Position numbers and translations under genes: made by a program. 39,963 bases of DNA, taken from contig NZ_VTRV01000002.1 in assembly GCF_008274655.1 (NCBI RefSeq), positions 1 through 39,963 on the forward strand, written 5' to 3'. Positions 898 through 7,835 of this stretch are shown one piece after another (within the stretch, counting starts at the first letter, position 1; every line of letters starts with the position of its first letter). Source of the DNA: Cognatilysobacter lacus. Its GTDB lineage: Bacteria; Pseudomonadota; Gammaproteobacteria; Xanthomonadales; Xanthomonadaceae. The notes below the pieces were generated by a model. It did no database searches. It worked only from the letters and a program-made list of their open reading frames with translations, and had not been told where the DNA came from.

Positions 898-2926
898 AGG
901 CCACCTCGCGCGAAGTCGGCGAATCACCGCGACGCGCGCGCAGCATCGCGCGCACGCCGAAGGCCACGGTTGCCAGCAGCACCCCGACGAACAGCAGGCA
1001 CAGCGCGGCATCGAGCATGTTGTTGAACGCGACCCGATGCATGTCGGCGATCGACTTGGCGGGCGCCAGCACCTCACCGCGCGCGGCGGCGTCCGAGAAC
1101 TTGCGGGCCGCGGCGATGAAGCCGATCTTCGGATCCGGATGCAGCAGCTTCTCCACGCCGGCGGTCAGCGTGCAGGCGAGCAGCCACGCCGTCGCGATGC
1201 CGGGTATCCACAGCAGCCGGCCGCGCTTCATGCGCACCAGCACCGCGCAACAGAACACCAGCGCGATGCCCGCAAGCATCTGGTTGGCGATGCCGAACAG
1301 TGGCCACAGCGTGTTGATGCCGCCGAGCGGGTCGACCACGCCCTGGTACAGGAACCAGCCCCAGCCCGCGACGGCGAGCGCGGTGCACAGCACGTTGCCG
1401 ACCCAGCTTCGCGTCTCGCGCAACGGCGGATAGGCGAGGCCGAGCATCTCCTGAAGCATGAATCGCGCCACGCGCGTGCCGGCGTCGATCGTGGTCAGGA
1501 TGAACAGCGCCTCGAACAGGATCGCGTAGTGGTACCAGAACGCCATCATCGCGTTGCCGCCGCCGAGGCCCGCGAGGATCTGCGCCATGCCGACCGCGAG
1601 CGTCGGCGCGCCGCCGGTGCGGGACAGCACCGTTTCCTCGCCGATCTGGTGCGCGGCCGCGGCCAGCACGTCCGGCGTGATGGCGAACCCCCAGCCATTG
1701 ATCGCGGCCGACGCGCTCTCGAGCGTTGTGCCGAGCGCAGCCACCGGCGCGTTCATCGCGAAGTACAGACCGGGCTGCAGCACGCAGGCGGCGATCAGCG
1801 CCATCACCGCGACGAACGCCTCCATCAGCATGGCGCCGTAGCCGATGACCGCGATGTCGCGTTCGTTGTCGATCATTTTCGGCGTCGTGCCCGAGCTGAT
1901 CAGCGCGTGGAATCCGGACACCGCGCCGCAGGCGATCGTGATGAACAGGAACGGAAACAGCGAGCCTGCGAACACCGGGCCGCTGCCGTCCACGAAGCGC
2001 GTCATCGCGGGCATCCGCAGGTCCGGCATCGCGACCAGGATCGCGAGGGCAAGCCCGACGATGGTTCCGATCTTGAGGAAGGTCGAGAGGTAATCACGCG
2101 GCGCCAGCAGCAGCCACACCGGCAATACCGACGCGACGAAGCCGTAGCCCATCAGCCACCAGGCGAGCGTGGTGCCCTGCAGCCGGAACACCGCGCTCCA
2201 GTGCGCGTCGGAAGCCACGTGCCCGCCGAACCAGATGGACGCGAGCAGCAACACGAAACCGATCAGCGACGCCTCGAGGATGCGTCCCGGCCGCAGCCAG
2301 CGCAGCCACGAGCCCATGAGCAGCGCGATCGGCACGGTCATGACGACGGTGAACGTGCCCCACGGGCTCTGCGCGAGCGCCTTGACCACCACCAGCGCGA
2401 GCACCGCCAGCAGGATGATCATGATCGCGGCGATGCCGAGCATGGAGACGACGCCTGCCGCATCGCCCATCTCGCTGCGGATCATCTCGCCCAGCGATCG
2501 CCCGTCGCGGCGGGTCGAAAAGAACAGCACCAGCATGTCCTGCACCGCGCCTGCGAACACGACGCCGAACAGGATCCACAGCGTGCCCGGCAGGTAACCC
2601 ATCTGCGCCGCCAGCACGGGGCCGACCAGCGGCCCTGCGCCGGCGATCGCGGCGAAATGGTGGCCGAACAGCACCCCGCGGGAGGTGGGCACGTAGTCCA
2701 GGCCGTCGTTGCGCCCGTGCGCCGGCGTGATGCGCGCGGGGTCGAGGCCGAGCTGGCGCCCGATGTAGCGGGCATAGAACCGGTAGGCGATGAAGAACGT
2801 GCTCGCCGAAGCGGCCACCAGCCACATCGCGCTGACCGTCTCGCCCCGGTGCAGTGCGAGCATGCCCAGCGATGCGACTGCGAGCAGGCCGAGCGCCGCC
2901 CAGAAAAGTGCCGCCAGTCCCCGCAT
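881..2926 (-). CDS. cstA: Carbon starvation protein A family transporter
   Basis: A 681-residue polytopic inner-membrane protein of the CstA/BtsT family, which takes up pyruvate or peptides during carbon limitation. Family segments are visible: YRFYARYIGRQLG near the N-terminus, GHHFAAIAGAGPLVGPVLAA, then a long run of hydrophobic helices and GFHALISSGTTPKMI in the middle. I place the start at the ATG at 2926, preceded by CAGGGAGA, which gives the normal N-terminus beginning with a transmembrane helix. The frame stays open about 160 bases further upstream, but that stretch is arginine-rich and unlike the family. Its 3' end overlaps the ybdD-like gene. The 249 bp before it, up to corA, show no gene. 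Confidence 0.93.
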   Translation of the reverse strand: MRGLAALFWAALGLLAVASLGMLALHRGETVSAMWLVAASASTFFIAYRFYARYIGRQLGLDPARITPAHGRNDGLDYVPTSRGVLFGHHFAAIAGAGPLVGPVLAAQMGYLPGTLWILFGVVFAGAVQDMLVLFFSTRRDGRSLGEMIRSEMGDAAGVVSMLGIAAIMIILLAVLALVVVKALAQSPWGTFTVVMTVPIALLMGSWLRWLRPGRILEASLIGFVLLLASIWFGGHVASDAHWSAVFRLQGTTLAWWLMGYGFVASVLPVWLLLAPRDYLSTFLKIGTIVGLALAILVAMPDLRMPAMTRFVDGSGPVFAGSLFPFLFITIACGAVSGFHALISSGTTPKMIDNERDIAVIGYGAMLMEAFVAVMALIAACVLQPGLYFAMNAPVAALGTTLESASAAINGWGFAITPDVLAAAAHQIGEETVLSRTGGAPTLAVGMAQILAGLGGGNAMMAFWYHYAILFEALFILTTIDAGTRVARFMLQEMLGLAYPPLRETRSWVGNVLCTALAVAGWGWFLYQGVVDPLGGINTLWPLFGIANQMLAGIALVFCCAVLVRMKRGRLLWIPGIATAWLLACTLTAGVEKLLHPDPKIGFIAAARKFSDAAARGEVLAPAKSIADMHRVAFNNMLDAALCLLFVGVLLATVAFGVRAMLRARRGDSPTSREVAYAAAG

Positions 2927-3175
2927 CGCGCGTCTCCCTGTTGAATCGCGAGCGTGGCGCAGGCGACGGCCGGGGGTCAATGTGCGTTGCGCAATTGCAT
3001 GGGCCGCGTCTGGCATCGACTGTGGCGTGCGAGGGCCGCGCCCGCTCCAGCCCTGCTGCGCACAGCGGGTTCCAGCCGCGCACGGCACTTACCTCGTGCG
3101 ACGTACGCGTCAGCCCTGCCAGCCCGACGCGCGCTGCACCGTGGCGAACGCATGAGAGGCCCTTCGGACCGCGAT

Positions 3176-4168
3176 CTACAGCCAGCGCGCCTTCTTGAAT
3201 TTCCAGTACAGCACCAGGCACACCAGCGCCATCGCGCCGATCAGGACGTAGTAGCTCCAGCGGCCATGCAGCTCAGGCATGTGCTCGAAGTTCATGCCGT
3301 ACCAGCTGGCGACCAGCGTCGGCGCCGCGAGCAGCGATGCCCAGGCACCGAGCCGCTTCACGATCTCGCCCTGCTGCACCGTCACCAGCGACAGGTTGAC
3401 GCCGACCGCGGCTGTCAGCATCTCGCGCAGGGTTTCGGTGCTCGACTGGATGCGCAGTGCATGGTCCAGCACGTCGCGCAGGTACGGCTGGATGGTTTCG
3501 TCGACCAGGCCGTCCTGCATGCGCGTCAGATGGCTGAGGATGTCCTGCATCGGCTCGGCCGCCATGCGCAGCTGCGTGATGTCGCGCTTGAGCCAGTACA
3601 GGCGCTGCACCGTCTCGCGACGGAAATCTTCGGCGAAGACGTCGTTCTCGAGTTCGCCCAGCAGGCGGTTGTACTCGTCGACGATCGGCAGGAAGTTGTC
3701 GACGATCAGGTCGAGCACGGCATAAAGCGCCGCACCCGGGCCGTGCATCAGCAGCGATTTTTCGCGCTCGAGGCGCGCGCGTGCCGGCGCATAGCTCGAC
3801 GACGCGCCGTGTCGCACGGTCACGATGTAGCGCGGGCCGACGAAGATGTGGGTCTCGCCGAAGCGGATGGCGCCTTCCGTCGACTGCGCGGTATGCACCG
3901 CGATGAACAGCGAGTCGCCGTAGGCCTCGAACTTCGGGCGCTGGTGCGCGTTACGCGCATCCTCGACGGCGAGCGGGTGGAGGTCGAACTCTTCCTGCAG
4001 CGTCGCCAGCAGCTTTTCGCCCGGCTCGTACAGGCCCACCCAGACGAAGCTGCCATCGTCGACGGCCAGGACGTCGCTGATCTGCGCGATGTCGATTTCG
4101 CGACGCGTGCCGTCGGGTTCGTAGGCGGCGCAATTGACGACGGAGGCGGCGTAGGCGGATTCGGTCAT
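3176..4168 (-). CDS. corA: Magnesium/cobalt transporter CorA
   Basis: A 330-residue CorA-type pentameric divalent-cation channel of the inner membrane. The signature YGMNF at the end of the first C-terminal transmembrane helix is followed by the MPEL loop and a second helix ending in KFKKARWL. The cytosolic N-terminal domain has the usual EEFDLHPLAVEDA segment. The ATG overlaps the stop codon of the preceding Lnb-like gene (ATGA), so the two are probably cotranscribed and coupled. It is also only two genes from corC, a family linked to Mg2+/Co2+ export. Length and motifs are typical. Confidence 0.95.
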   Translation of the reverse strand: MTESAYAASVVNCAAYEPDGTRREIDIAQISDVLAVDDGSFVWVGLYEPGEKLLATLQEEFDLHPLAVEDARNAHQRPKFEAYGDSLFIAVHTAQSTEGAIRFGETHIFVGPRYIVTVRHGASSSYAPARARLEREKSLLMHGPGAALYAVLDLIVDNFLPIVDEYNRLLGELENDVFAEDFRRETVQRLYWLKRDITQLRMAAEPMQDILSHLTRMQDGLVDETIQPYLRDVLDHALRIQSSTETLREMLTAAVGVNLSLVTVQQGEIVKRLGAWASLLAAPTLVASWYGMNFEHMPELHGRWSYYVLIGAMALVCLVLYWKFKKARWL

Positions 4169-5367
4169 GGACCGATGCTATCGGCGGACGGTCGCGAGGT
4201 GTCGCGCAACCCGGCCCAGATTCCCGCATGAATGGGCAGGAGCAGCGCGATCCATCGCGCGTTGTCCTGCGCCCCGGATTCCAGCCACGACACGAACACC
4301 GCGACGAGTGCCACGGCGGTCAGCACCGGCAAGAGGCGCCGCATCAGGGGCCCGGGCGCGCGGCCCCGCACCAACCGCCACGCGCCGGGCAGCGCCAGCA
4401 GCGCCAGCGGATCCAGCAGCAGCAGGTTGCGGTTCGCCCACGCGAAGCGGTGCACGGTGTCCAGCCAAAGGAACAGCAGCAGCATCCCGAGCAGGCTGCT
4501 GACCGTCCAGAACACGAGCGCGAATGCCGCCGCGCACCGGGGGCGACCTGCGCCCGCGAACGCCAGGCCCAACCCCAGCACCACGCCGACCGCCAGCCAT
4601 GACCCGACCGCGCGCGGGGCTTCGGTGGGCTCCGGCGCGATCCGATGCGGCAACACCGGAACCTCGGCCGCCACCAGCGGATGGCCATCGATCCGGACCT
4701 CGCGCAGCGCAGCCGCCAGCCGCATCGGTACGAACGATTCTTCCCACAGCGACAGCGGCCGGTCCGCGCTGGGGCCAAGGCCCACATCGAAGCCCAGCCA
4801 CATCCAGGTTGCCGGTGACGCGAGGCGCACTGCTTCGCTGCGGTAGGTGCTGCCATGCGACCGCCCGACCAGCTGGCGCCGCAGTTCGCCGCCGACGGCG
4901 CTGTCGATCGCGTCGCGGACCCGCGTGGAGCAGTTGTCGCGGAAATAGTCGTAGCGGTAGACCGCGTTCTCCGGGCGCGCGTTGATGGCGAGCGCGCTGG
5001 CGAGTGAAACCGCCTGCGCATCGCTCAACTGCAACCACTGGATGGACACGCCGCGGCCTTCGTCGCGGTACATCACCATGTCCTCGTCGAAGGGCAGGGC
5101 GGCGAGGCGGTACCGCATGATGCCGTGCACGAAGTTGCCGACGAAGCCGGGCTCGGACGGATCGAAGAAGCCGAAGTTGTAGGACGTGGCGGCGCCGGTA
5201 GCCGGGTCGACGACGACAAGCGCGTCGTGCCCGAAGCGCTCCCAGAAGATCTCACCCGGCTGCATGGTGGCCACGCCGATGCGCGGCGCCGCCGATGCCC
5301 ACGGCCCGAGCAGCAGCAGCAACAGCGCGAGGAGGGCCGCGGCGATGCGGCGATCAGGCCTCGCCAT
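4165..5367 (-). CDS. DUF4105 / Lnb-like membrane protein (lipoprotein N-acyltransferase-like architecture)
   Basis: A 400-residue protein with an N-terminal signal/anchor helix (about residues 8-26), a periplasmic domain of roughly 230 residues and about five C-terminal hydrophobic segments. The periplasmic part carries the DUF4105 (Lnb N-terminal domain) blocks: RFGHDALVV with His47, SYNFGFFD, and YDYFRDNCSTRVRDAID with Cys146. The Cys/His pair suggests a thiol catalyst. Periplasmic DUF4105 followed by membrane helices is the layout of Lnb, the Bacteroides lipoprotein N-acyltransferase. The ATG at 5367 overlaps the end of corC by 14 bp and the stop overlaps the corA start. In E. coli this position after corC (ybeX) is held by lnt. 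Family and topology are well supported; acyltransferase activity is inference. Confidence 0.8.
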   Translation of the reverse strand: MARPDRRIAAALLALLLLLLGPWASAAPRIGVATMQPGEIFWERFGHDALVVVDPATGAATSYNFGFFDPSEPGFVGNFVHGIMRYRLAALPFDEDMVMYRDEGRGVSIQWLQLSDAQAVSLASALAINARPENAVYRYDYFRDNCSTRVRDAIDSAVGGELRRQLVGRSHGSTYRSEAVRLASPATWMWLGFDVGLGPSADRPLSLWEESFVPMRLAAALREVRIDGHPLVAAEVPVLPHRIAPEPTEAPRAVGSWLAVGVVLGLGLAFAGAGRPRCAAAFALVFWTVSSLLGMLLLFLWLDTVHRFAWANRNLLLLDPLALLALPGAWRLVRGRAPGPLMRRLLPVLTAVALVAVFVSWLESGAQDNARWIALLLPIHAGIWAGLRDTSRPSADSIGP

Positions 5368-6205
5368 GCACGCCCACGTGGAAGGCGTGCACGCGGCGGG
5401 CATCCGCGCCTGCGACGCGGAACACGAAGCGCCCGAGCGAAAGCTCTTCACCGGCTTCCGGCAGGTGGCCGATGGCCGCGGTGACCAGCCCGCCGATGGT
5501 GTCGTATTCGTCGTCGTCGAAGTCGGCGCTGAAGCGTTCGTTGAAATCGGCGATCGGCGTCAGCGCATCGACCACGAACTGACCGTCGGCCTGCGCTGCG
5601 ATCAGGGCGTCCGGATCCTGCGCATCGTCGTGCTCGTCGTCGATCTCGCCGACGATCTGTTCCAGCACGTCCTCGATCGTGATCAGCCCGCCGACACCGC
5701 CGTGCTCGTCGATGACGATCGCCATGTGGTTGCGCGACTGCCGGAACTCCCGCAGCAGCAGGTCGAGGCGCTTCGACGCCGGCACCAGCAGCGCCGGGCG
5801 CAGCAGTTCGTGGATCGTCGCCGAGCCGTCGTCGCTCACGACGCCGCGCAGCAGGTCCTTGGCGAGCAGCACGCCGACGATCTCGTCGCGGTCCTCGCCA
5901 TGCACCGGAAAGCGCGAATGACCGGACTCGACCACCATCTTCATCAGGTCGAGGAAGCGCGCTTCGGCCGGCAGCGAGACCATCTGCGAGCGCGAGATCA
6001 TGACGTCGCCCACGGTCATGTCCGACACCGCGATCGCGCCTTCCATCATGCGCAGCGTGTCGCCCTCGATCAGGCCGTCCGACTGCGCGTCGCGCAGCAG
6101 TTCGACCAGGTCCTCGCGGGTCGATGGCTCGCCCGACAGTGCGGAGCTGATGCGGTCGAACCAGGAGCGGCGCTCGTGGTGGGTACTACTGTCGTCCTCG
6201 GACAT
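5354..6205 (-). CDS. corC: HlyC/CorC family CBS-domain protein (YbeX)
   Basis: A 283-residue cytosolic protein with no membrane helix, made of two CBS domains followed by a CorC_HlyC (transporter-associated) domain. Recognisable pieces are VGDVMISRSQMVSL at the first CBS, SGHSRFPVHGEDRDEIVGVLLAKDLL, the second CBS around HMAIVIDEHGGVGGLITIEDVLE, and the C-terminal TIGGLVTAAIGHLP. CorC is linked to Mg2+/Co2+ efflux, and in E. coli YbeX also affects ribosome metabolism. It belongs to the conserved miaB-ybeZ-ybeY-ybeX block, 102 bp after ybeY, a gap that holds a strong hairpin and a TAGACT box. It overlaps the Lnb-like gene downstream. Confidence 0.93.
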   Translation of the reverse strand: MSEDDSSTHHERRSWFDRISSALSGEPSTREDLVELLRDAQSDGLIEGDTLRMMEGAIAVSDMTVGDVMISRSQMVSLPAEARFLDLMKMVVESGHSRFPVHGEDRDEIVGVLLAKDLLRGVVSDDGSATIHELLRPALLVPASKRLDLLLREFRQSRNHMAIVIDEHGGVGGLITIEDVLEQIVGEIDDEHDDAQDPDALIAAQADGQFVVDALTPIADFNERFSADFDDDEYDTIGGLVTAAIGHLPEAGEELSLGRFVFRVAGADARRVHAFHVGVHGEA

Positions 6206-6257
6206 GTCTTCGTTCGGGTACGCCGCGCGTGGCGGCAGGGGTCAGTCTAGCGGGTCC

Positions 6258-6288
6258 GCGCGACCCGGCCGTGGAGATGGGGTCGCGC
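6258..6288 (-). other. Inverted repeat between ybeY and corC
   Basis: A perfect 9-bp inverted repeat, GCGCGACCC and GGGTCGCGC, with a 13-nt loop lies between the ybeY stop and the corC start. No T-tract follows, so it is not a classic intrinsic terminator. It could be an RNA stability or attenuation hairpin. On the minus strand a TAGACT hexamer (6244-6249) follows it and could be a secondary -10 for corC, but the -35 is poor. Confidence 0.45.
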
Positions 6289-6307
6289 CCGCGTCGCTCA
6301 AGGCGGC

Positions 6308-6766
6308 TCAGTACGGGTCCGCGATGCCGAGCTTTGCCAGCACCGCCCGTTCGCGCGCTTCCATCGCCTCGGCATCGGCGTCGTCGATATGGTCCATGCC
6401 CAGCAGGTGCAGGGTGCCGTGCACGACCAGGTGCGCGTAGTGGTCGTTGCGCCGCTTGCCCTGCTCGGCGGCTTCGCGCGCGACGACGTCGGCGCAGATC
6501 ACCAGGTCGCCCAGCAGCGGTAACGGCACGTCCGCCGGCCAGCCCTCGGGCGCGTCGGCCGGAAAGCTGAGCACGTTGGTCGCGTAGTCGCGCTGGCGGT
6601 ACTGGCGGTTGAGCTCGCGGCCTTCGTCCGTGCCGACCACCCGTATCCCCACTTCGGCTGCTTCGTCGCGGTCGGCCAGTGCCGCCGCCACCCACCTGCG
6701 AAAGCTCGCCGCCGACGGGACGCCGGCGCGCGCGGTGGCATAACTCACGCTGACATCGGCGACCAC
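6308..6766 (-). CDS. ybeY: Endoribonuclease YbeY (16S rRNA maturation)
   Basis: A 152-residue UPF0054 metallo-endoribonuclease involved in 16S rRNA 3'-end maturation and ribosome quality control. The zinc motif [11 protein letters not shown] is intact and is preceded by ATNVLSFP and LLGDLVIC. I choose the GTG at 6766 because GGAGAG lies 7 nt before it and it starts 16 bp after the ybeZ stop. An ATG at 6823 would add 19 arginine-rich residues overlapping ybeZ and has no better ribosome binding site. It sits in the standard miaB-ybeZ-ybeY-corC order. Confidence 0.93.
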
Positions 6767-6782
6767 TGCGCTCTCCGTGCGC

Positions 6783-7766
6783 CTACGCCCGGCCGGTGGC
6801 CGCGTCCGTTGCGTCGCGTGCATCGTAGGCGTTGACGATGCGGGCGACCAGCGGATGGCGCACCACGTCGCGCGATTCGAAGAAGGTGAAGCTGATGCCC
6901 TCGACGCCCGTGAGCACGTCGAGGCCGTCGCGCAGGCCGGATTTCTGGCTCTTGGGCAGGTCTATCTGGCTGAGGTCGCCGGTCACCACCGCGGTGCTGC
7001 CGAAGCCGATGCGCGTCAGGAACATCTTCATCTGCTCGACCGTGGTGTTCTGCGCCTCGTCGAGGATCACGTAGGCATCGTTGAGCGTGCGGCCGCGCAT
7101 GTACGCCAGCGGCGCGATCTCGATGACGTTGCGCTCCAGCAGCTTCGCCACCTTCTCGACGCCGAGCATTTCGTACAGCGCGTCGTACAACGGGCGCAGG
7201 TAGGGGTCGACCTTCTGCGACAGGTCGCCGGGCAGGAACCCCAGCTTCTCGCCGGCCTCGACCGCGGGCCGCACCAGCACGATGCGCTGCACGCGCGCGG
7301 TGTTCAGCGCCTCGACGGCCAGCGCGACCGCGAGGAACGTCTTGCCGGTACCGGCCGGGCCGATGCCGAAGTTGATGTCGTGCGTGGCGATCGCGTGCAG
7401 GTAGCGCGCCTGGTTCTCGCCGCGTGCGCGCAGCGTGCCGCGCTTGACCCGGATCACCACTTCCTGCGGCTCGACGTCTTCCGCCATGCGCTGTTCGACG
7501 CCCGACTGGCTCAGTCGAAGGTGGATGCCGGGTTCGGTGATGACCTCATCGACGGTATCCGCCCACAGCTCCTGGATGAGCCGCTCGGCATGCCGCGCCG
7601 CCGGTGCGGTGCCGGTCACGCGGAACACGTTGCCGCGATTGGCCACCTGCACCGCTAGGCGTAGTTCGATCATCCGCAGGTGCGCGTCGAACGGGCCGGC
7701 GAGGTTGGCGAGCCGCTCCGGCGCGGGCGGGTCGAGGACGAAATCGTGGTGGATGAGCTCGGCCAT
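6783..7766 (-). CDS. ybeZ: PhoH family ATPase YbeZ
   Basis: A PhoH-like P-loop ATPase that works with YbeY in RNA metabolism. Walker A is GPAGTGKT (about residues 136-143 from the ATG at 7766), Walker B is VILDEAQN, and [11 protein letters not shown] follows. An N-terminal KH-like region precedes the ATPase core. Two starts are possible. The ATG at 7766 gives MAELIHHDF, leading straight into the usual 'L-x-P-x-x-x-x-R-L-A-x-L-x-G' opening. The ATG at 7799 adds 11 residues. Neither has a clear Shine-Dalgarno sequence, so the start is uncertain. It follows miaB on the same strand. Confidence 0.92.
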
Positions 7767-7835
7767 GCGTGCGTGGGATTCGTGGGGTCGGGCGACCATG
7801 CATGCGCCGGCGGCTGCGGCGCGTGAGGCCGCGGG

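Follow-up and report, generated by a model that had tools for sequence, protein, structure and literature searches.

The order Lysobacterales (Xanthomonadales) of the gammaproteobacteria, which includes Lysobacter, Xanthomonas and relatives, appears to have lost Lnt, the standard enzyme that finishes bacterial lipoproteins, and to carry in the same chromosomal slot an unrelated enzyme type known from Bacteroides, Lnb. The lipoproteins of these bacteria are thus probably fully acylated and not incomplete, as has been inferred for Xanthomonas campestris. The starting point is a gene of Cognatilysobacter lacus, found in a window of 39,963 nucleotides (the whole stretch analysed; assembly GCF_008274655.1, contig NZ_VTRV01000002.1, positions 1 to 39,963). 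A sequence-only reading of this window had noticed that the gene directly after corC is not lnt, as in the E. coli order miaB-ybeZ-ybeY-ybeX(corC)-lnt, but encodes a protein with the Lnb layout: a signal anchor, a periplasmic DUF4105 domain with His47 and Cys146, and about five transmembrane helices. It proposed a non-orthologous substitute for, or helper of, Lnt. The observation is correct. The interpretation is supported by what follows, although the enzymatic function is inferred and N-acylation of diacylated lipoproteins was not assayed.

The open reading frame at 4165-5367 on the minus strand (ATG start, stop included) gives a protein of 400 aa. It overlaps corC/ybeX (5354-6205, minus strand), in which Pfam confirms the CorC_HlyC and CBS domains, by 14 bp as had been read. 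The upstream order on the minus strand is miaB, phoH-like ybeZ (6783-7799), ybeY (6308-6823) and corC, with homologues of ybeY and ybeZ at the same position in other loci. On the other side, the start of a corA-like transporter gene (3176-4168, minus strand) overlaps the stop of the lnb-like gene by 4 bp. A promoter and terminator scan of positions 2900-7000 found nothing. The E. coli gene order itself was not looked up in E. coli, but in the rest of the class corC lies just upstream of lnt in 33 of 40 loci fetched for this test, which were taken from the high-scoring part of the list. corC lies upstream of the lnb-like gene in 45 of 48 named loci, and in 16 of 18 loci spread over the order's families.

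Both Lnb domains pass Pfam's cut-offs. Lnb_N (PF13387, the former DUF4105), the periplasmic catalytic domain, scores 55.1 bits (cut-off 22.2) over residues 33-162 (4882-5271, minus strand), and 5TMH_Lnb (PF25221) scores 32.0 bits (cut-off 25.2) over residues 263-337. The 39 members of a first alignment match both at E <= 0.001. His47 (codon at 5227-5229, minus strand) and Asn145-Cys146 (codons at 4930-4935, minus strand, with Cys146 the candidate nucleophile; coordinates computed from the ORF start at 5367) are invariant in 39 of 39 of these sequences. They are also invariant in 32 of 32 sequences of a second, overlapping set, which covers 11 families of the order plus Gemmatimonadota; catalysis itself was not tested. 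The N-terminal hydrophobic stretch (residues about 1-26, 5290-5367, minus strand), with a predicted helix at 6-20, ends in A-S-A at residues 24-26, so it could be a cleaved signal peptide as well as the signal anchor first proposed; cleavage was not tested. In the AlphaFold model (pLDDT 94), the C-terminal membrane domain (4207-4608, minus strand) has helices at residues 254-274, 276-302, 320-333, 340-361 and 370-387, four of which are found by hydropathy alone. Its conserved His306 and Asn312 lie in a loop inferred to be periplasmic.

A predicted fold unlike Lnb had been named in advance as an observation that would speak against the proposal. No Lnb structure turned up in the PDB searches for a direct comparison, and a sequence search of the PDB with the protein gave no meaningful hit. 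However, structural comparison of the predicted model places residues 24-242 in the permuted NlpC/P60 (LRAT-like) fold expected of DUF4105, with matches to TseH (Z 12.2, rmsd 3.2, 151 residues), YiiX (Z 10.6, rmsd 3.7, 162 residues), Aichivirus 2A (Z 8.1) and, weakly, TIG3 (Z 6.5). Most of the other matches cover only the helix bundle and say little, and Foldseek alone gave nothing under E 0.001 (best 2.2e-3, TseH). This fold brings in a rival reading that we consider very unlikely, in which the protein is an unrelated envelope hydrolase such as a cell-wall peptidase, or a helper whose place next to corC is plain synteny. Canonical NlpC/P60 relatives are indeed cell-wall peptidases, TseH has been proposed to be an endopeptidase, and the neighborhood is conserved as a whole. 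But the permuted type is described as specific for lipids, and the reciprocal occupation of the slot described below is not expected from synteny alone.

The second point set beforehand was whether a normal lnt exists elsewhere in the genome, and none was found. The LNT_N profile gives no match, while the same model gives matches in E. coli and 6 more of 14 control genomes. TIGR00546 gives only a 19-bit hit under its cut-off, on a contig beside an ORF that looks like agmatine deiminase, so this is probably a nitrilase of another pathway. Lgt is present; LspA was not searched for. Since the genome is 91.87% complete, the order-wide pattern carries the argument. The Lnb-like protein is in 387 of 398 sampled genomes of the order (340 of 343 well-assembled ones) and in 0 of 364 sampled genomes from the rest of the class, of which 334 have LNT_N, Lnt's N-terminal domain. 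The three well-assembled order genomes without it carry LNT_N proteins with the canonical Cys-Tyr-Glu motif directly after corC, so one slot holds either gene. Two of these three are of one genus, and the reciprocal pattern therefore rests on about two lineages; two probabilities that had been calculated ignore shared ancestry and are not used as evidence. Because 296 of the 398 order genomes have no LNT_N match, and the only lnb-less well-assembled genomes of that sample have lnt in the very same slot, "substitute" fits better than "helper". There are exceptions: one well-assembled genome of the family (G036, 94% complete) has neither gene, and three genomes (G302, G231 and G102) have both a Cys-Tyr-Glu Lnt and the Lnb-like protein. 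The third point, unchanged acylation in a mutant, lies outside this computational analysis. One LolC/E-type permease over cut-off (459.9 bits) and one weak full-length hit under it (155.6 bits) were found when the Lol machinery was searched for a clue to whether triacylation is essential, which does not decide the question either way.

It could still be argued that an Lnt-type enzyme does the job, either because it was missed in this incomplete genome or because divergent Lnt-like paralogues in part of the order are the real N-acyltransferases. Indeed, 102 of 398 order genomes have an LNT_N match, 95 of them over the cut-off. However, of the 110 LNT_N places in the order sample, 5 show the canonical Cys-Tyr-Glu motif, and 89 read Cys-Lys-Asp, Cys-Leu-Asp or Cys-Arg-Asp. 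In E. coli Lnt, Ala at Y388 or E389, the two positions that differ, abolishes rescue. When 5 places from the family search are added, the 115 comprise 53 Cys-Lys-Asp, 37 Cys-Leu-Asp, 3 Cys-Arg-Asp, 6 Cys-Tyr-Glu, 8 other motifs and 8 unresolved (fragments or gaps); the other family-only places were not classified. None of 90 of these loci (L104-L193) has corC in the flank fetched, about 600 bp upstream or less at contig ends, and among the 25 other LNT_N loci, with 1.5 kb flanks, only L060, L061 and L062 do. Genes between lnb and corA in Pseudoxanthomonas and Luteimonas were also considered as a hidden lnt: the plus-strand frame in loci L022 and L021 looks like a glycoside hydrolase (it was not run against a profile library), and the one in L019 was not settled. 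This rival is mostly excluded and very unlikely.

The best explanation, which we hold with good confidence, is that the gene encodes an Lnb-type lipoprotein N-acyltransferase that has taken over the job and the chromosomal place of Lnt in the order. The domains, the predicted fold, the invariant His and Asn-Cys, the failure to find Lnt and the reciprocal occupation of one slot come directly from the analysis, while the chemistry, the acyl donor, the substrate and the triacylated state of the products are inferred. An unlikely alternative is that the protein is an Lnb homologue with a different lipid reaction, for example a phospholipase or an acyl transfer to another acceptor, and that lipoproteins of this order really are diacylated. 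In its favor, a sister clade in the permuted NlpC/P60 set is a toxin with phospholipase activity, and the score on the NCBIfam Lnb equivalog (given below) is so far under the cut-off that identity of function does not follow from sequence. A 2023 study independently found no Lnt in Xanthomonas campestris and inferred diacyl anchors, and no enzymatic or lipoprotein-chemistry data for this order appeared in our literature searches. In addition, 30 of the 364 class genomes outside the order lack LNT_N and none has the Lnb-like protein, so loss of Lnt may not require a substitute. But this alternative does not explain why the gene sits exactly in the lnt slot, why lnt occupies that slot in the lnb-less genomes, or why both the catalytic and the membrane domain of Lnb are recognizable in all 39 proteins scanned. 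For Xanthomonas campestris, the results point instead to an overlooked N-acyltransferase.

In the broadest reading, which we consider likely, nitrilase-type Lnt was replaced in situ after corC by an LRAT-like Cys/His acyltransferase of the Lnb kind, probably once near the base of the order. The corC tree puts the lnt-bearing family f6 with the outgroup only weakly (86/68), and the corC of genome G214 is a very long branch, so a single replacement is plausible but not shown. In this view, the order's lipoproteins, including those of Xanthomonas, would be triacylated by a chemically unrelated enzyme, and the E. coli picture of one proteobacterial Lnt would not hold for the class. Lnt is the textbook last step of lipoprotein maturation in proteobacteria. 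A clean swap across an order, visible as two unrelated genes alternating in one slot, would explain why no Lnt was found in Xanthomonas campestris and would overturn the diacyl inference, which was used to model LolA/LolB lipid binding. It also bears on how hosts sense these lipoproteins, and by inference predicts that inhibitors of Lnt would not act on most of this order. That DUF4105 (Lnb-type) proteins are displaced by Lnt is already in print in general terms, and PMC12994826 gives three exchange contexts (its Fig 4B and S3 Table).

Several known systems can be compared. The genome's other Lnb_N-domain protein (601 aa) shares the Lnb_N domain (96.4 bits), but it has a DUF7844 domain, no 5TMH_Lnb, and no match to the Lnb equivalog. 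TseH, Tox-Act1, YiiX and LRAT/HRASLS, of the permuted NlpC/P60 group, share the fold of the catalytic domain (TseH, YiiX and TIG3 in our structural comparison, Tox-Act1 according to the literature) and a conserved His and Cys; they include toxins and lipid enzymes, and are not known here to carry the five-helix Lnb membrane domain. Lnt, the nitrilase-type apolipoprotein N-acyltransferase, has in common with this protein the slot after corC, the proposed product, and a proposed Cys-based ping-pong acyl transfer from phospholipid, but no domain, since Lnt has LNT_N and CN_hydrolase and neither was found in this protein at E <= 1. The closest system is Lnb, the lipoprotein N-acyltransferase of Bacteroides (Armbruster et al., PNAS 2024), with which the protein shares both Pfam domains over cut-off, a conserved His and Cys, and a genome in which no Lnt was found. 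A Bacteroides Lnb sequence was not compared directly. NCBIfam's Lnb model (NF051878) aligns over residues 29-350 (E 2.6e-45), though with 155 bits against a cut-off of 550, so the protein is classed as an Lnb-family homologue only and not as the same equivalog. It is found in a gammaproteobacterial order, in the corC-lnt slot.

The minus-strand ORF 5367-4165 encodes a protein of 400 aa and starts 14 bp inside the end of corC (5354-6205), in the order miaB, phoH/ybeZ, ybeY, corC, this gene, corA. Pfam finds Lnb_N (55.1 bits, cut-off 22.2) and 5TMH_Lnb (32.0 bits, cut-off 25.2) in it. The observation made in the sequence-only reading thus holds, since the position of the gene, its overlap with corC, His47, Cys146 and the helices are all confirmed. 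Hydropathy detects the N-terminal stretch and four of the five C-terminal helices, while the AlphaFold model (mean pLDDT 94.0, pTM 0.89, from 39 sequences) shows five. The N-terminal stretch, which had been read as a signal anchor, could equally be a cleaved signal peptide.

The genome (G000) comprises 2,855,702 bases in 301 contigs and is 91.87% complete. The closest named loci are from Lysobacter segetis (81%) and Lysobacter terrigena (76%), and from these neighbors we infer that the order is Lysobacterales, also called Xanthomonadales, in which Lysobacteraceae, Rhodanobacteraceae, Ahniellaceae, and Marinicellaceae are listed. Our sample of the order spans 12 families, here called f1-f12. 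A search for relatives of the protein returned 48 named loci, 45 from Pseudomonadota (Lysobacter, Luteimonas, Pseudoxanthomonas, Vulcaniibacterium, Xanthomonas, Rehaibacterium, and MAGs) and 3 from Gemmatimonadota (37-39% identity). When 38 of the 48 were aligned with the window protein, His47, Asn145, and Cys146 were invariant in 39 of 39, and all 39 members match both Lnb Pfam domains. In a second, overlapping set of 32 sequences, covering f1-f5 and f7-f12 plus Gemmatimonadota, the same three residues are again invariant in 32 of 32. So are His306 and Asn312 (gaps allowed in up to two rows), which lie in a loop that the helix count places on the periplasmic side.

A predicted fold unlike that of Lnb had been named in advance as evidence against an Lnb-type enzyme. 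In a VIA-align comparison, residues 24-242 of the model match TseH (Z 12.2, rmsd 3.2 over 151 residues) and YiiX (Z 10.6, rmsd 3.7 over 162), with Aichivirus 2A (8.1) and TIG3 (6.5) below. Foldseek also ranks TseH first, although only at E 2.2e-3. A 2026 study places TseH, YiiX, LRAT, and DUF4105 (Lnb_N) in the permuted NlpC/P60 group, whose members are described as having a pocket specific for lipids (PMC12994826). NCBIfam's Lnb equivalog (NF051878) aligns over residues 29-350 at E 2.6e-45, but the score is 155 bits against a cut-off of 550. Four relatives score 153-174 bits on the same model. The protein is therefore a nearly full-length Lnb homolog outside of the curated equivalog, and we class it as a member of the Lnb family and not as proven Lnb. 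By contrast, the other Lnb_N-domain protein of this genome, encoded by ORF 898-2700 (-) of locus L002 (G000:C269:14815-18327), gets no match to the equivalog. This second protein, of 601 aa and unknown function, carries DUF7844 and has no Lnb membrane domain.

The presence of a normal lnt elsewhere in the genome had also been set beforehand as a counter-test. None was found in this 91.87% complete genome: LNT_N gives no match, and TIGR00546 yields only a 19-bit hit, whereas the LNT_N model detects 7 of 14 control genomes, including E. coli. Lgt is present (248.7 bits); LspA was not searched for. Only one LolC/E-type permease passes the cut-off, the other full-length hit being weak (G000:C277, locus L195, and G000:C109, locus L196). 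A one-permease Lol exporter could mean that triacylation is not essential here, an idea that we did not test. In the family, 55 of 198 genomes have an LNT_N match, 49 of them over the cut-off, while 194 of 198 have a match to the Lnb-like protein (178 of 179 well-assembled, meaning at least 90% complete and at most 5% contaminated; one, G110, only at E 1.7e-4). In the order, 102 of 398 genomes have LNT_N, 95 over the cut-off, and 387 of 398 have the Lnb-like protein (340 of 343 well-assembled). As the profile search scores only the best few candidates per genome (up to 5 in one of the class searches), a distant homolog could be missed. In the class sample of 369 genomes, LNT_N is in 335 and the Lnb-like protein in 5, all five belonging to this order. 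Outside of the order, then, LNT_N is found in 334 of 364 genomes and the Lnb-like protein in 0 of 364.

To find out what the LNT_N hits in the order are, the 110 places listed in the order search, plus 5 from the family search, were classified by the residues aligned to Cys387-Tyr388-Glu389 of E. coli Lnt. Of these 115, 53 read Cys-Lys-Asp, 37 Cys-Leu-Asp, and 3 Cys-Arg-Asp, while 8 have other motifs and 8 could not be read. Only 6 read Cys-Tyr-Glu, namely those of genomes G202, G212, G214, G302, and G231 in the order sample and G102 in the family sample. The four class controls in the same alignment also read Cys-Tyr-Glu. The Cys-Lys-Asp group (loci such as L067, L069, L073, and L176) consists of Lnt-like proteins of about 480 aa, scattered through the order and without corC in the flanks seen; the one scanned (L073) has LNT_N and CN_hydrolase. 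The second group, with Cys-Leu-Asp or Cys-Arg-Asp (40 loci such as L005, L006, L104, and L113), has proteins of roughly 780 aa where complete, with a C-terminal extension, in genomes most of which also have the Lnb-like gene. In E. coli Lnt, Ala at Y388 or E389 abolishes rescue of Lnt depletion (PMC5500890). The large groups are therefore probably not working Lnt of the E. coli kind, although this was not tested.

The three well-assembled order genomes lacking the Lnb-like protein are G202, G212, and G214. They have the three highest LNT_N scores of the order sample (116.3, 117.3, and 93.7 bits), read Cys-Tyr-Glu, and have a corC gene directly upstream (55, 55, and 27% identity to the window's, respectively; that of G214 is confirmed as CBS + CorC_HlyC). 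The eight other order genomes without the Lnb-like protein are 65-88% complete and have no LNT_N match either. The Lnb-like gene itself follows corC on the same strand, within about 0.65 kb, in 45 of 48 named loci, the 3 exceptions being the Gemmatimonadota. It does so in 16 of 18 loci from across the order, the only exceptions being L096 and L097 (genus g83), where no corC lies in the 1.5 kb flanks. As controls, corC lies just upstream of lnt in 33 of 40 class loci, which were chosen from the high-scoring part of the list. Among the LNT_N loci of the order and family, it is found in 3 of the 25 seen with 1.5 kb flanks (L060, L061, and L062), and in 0 of the 90 others, for which about 600 bp upstream or less were fetched.

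Some results go against this pattern. Genome G036 of the family sample, 94% complete, has neither gene, which could be an assembly gap or a true double loss. G302, G231, and G102 have both a Cys-Tyr-Glu Lnt and the Lnb-like protein. Thirty of 364 class genomes outside of the order have no LNT_N and no Lnb-like protein, so a gammaproteobacterium may do without either, as far as these searches see. G202 and G212 are one genus, and the reciprocal pattern is thus about two independent lineages. In family f8, the Lnb-like proteins of five loci (L099-L103, 28-31% identity) have a profile match that ends early, at position 295-345 of 394, so the membrane domain there is shorter or strongly diverged.

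In a corC tree, the lnt-bearing f6 pair falls with the outgroup, although weakly (86/68), and G214 is a very long branch. The G214 locus (L062) has ybeY, a very divergent corC, and a canonical lnt, in a genome placed in family f8, whose other sampled members mostly have the Lnb-like protein. A return of lnt or a misplaced genome is possible. In the Lnb tree, whose root is drawn at the midpoint only, each family sampled more than once groups together (f1 at 91/86), and the Gemmatimonadota group (96/83) lies among the families of the order. One replacement near the base of the order, with a later return of lnt in the lineage of G214, would fit, and transfer between phyla is possible, but neither is proven. 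What the analysis does show is a real and order-wide replacement pattern. That the replacing protein is an N-acyltransferase is inferred, an Lnb-type enzyme being by far the best candidate. The proposal of the sequence-only reading, that a non-orthologous substitute for or helper of Lnt occupies its position, is therefore supported.

The absence of Lnt has a precedent in Xanthomonas campestris B100, in which no Lnt could be found and diacylated lipoproteins were inferred (PMC10368991). That strain was not examined here, but two other Xanthomonas loci (L046 and L047) carry corC followed by the Lnb-like gene. Besides PMC12994826, the only open-licence paper found to mention DUF4105 was PMC10318531, which guesses at support of resistance transporters or translocation. 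Searches of open-licence papers on Lnb in Gammaproteobacteria and on Lnt in Xanthomonadaceae returned nothing, and the one paper on Lnt and Xanthomonadales (PMC10501053) was not relevant. Those on Lnt in Xylella and Xanthomonas (including PMC13103446 and PMC11543891) and on triacylated lipoproteins in genera of this order showed no paper naming the enzyme of this order, within open-licence papers, most of which were not examined. According to PMC12994826, DUF4105 proteins are repeatedly displaced by Lnt in three genomic contexts, among which the slot described here may be one, and DUF4105 was identified as Lnb in Bacteroides. The kind of enzyme is thus known, and so in general is its exchange with Lnt. 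What seems new is that one order of gammaproteobacteria relies on it, in Lnt's own slot, against a published inference of diacyl lipoproteins.
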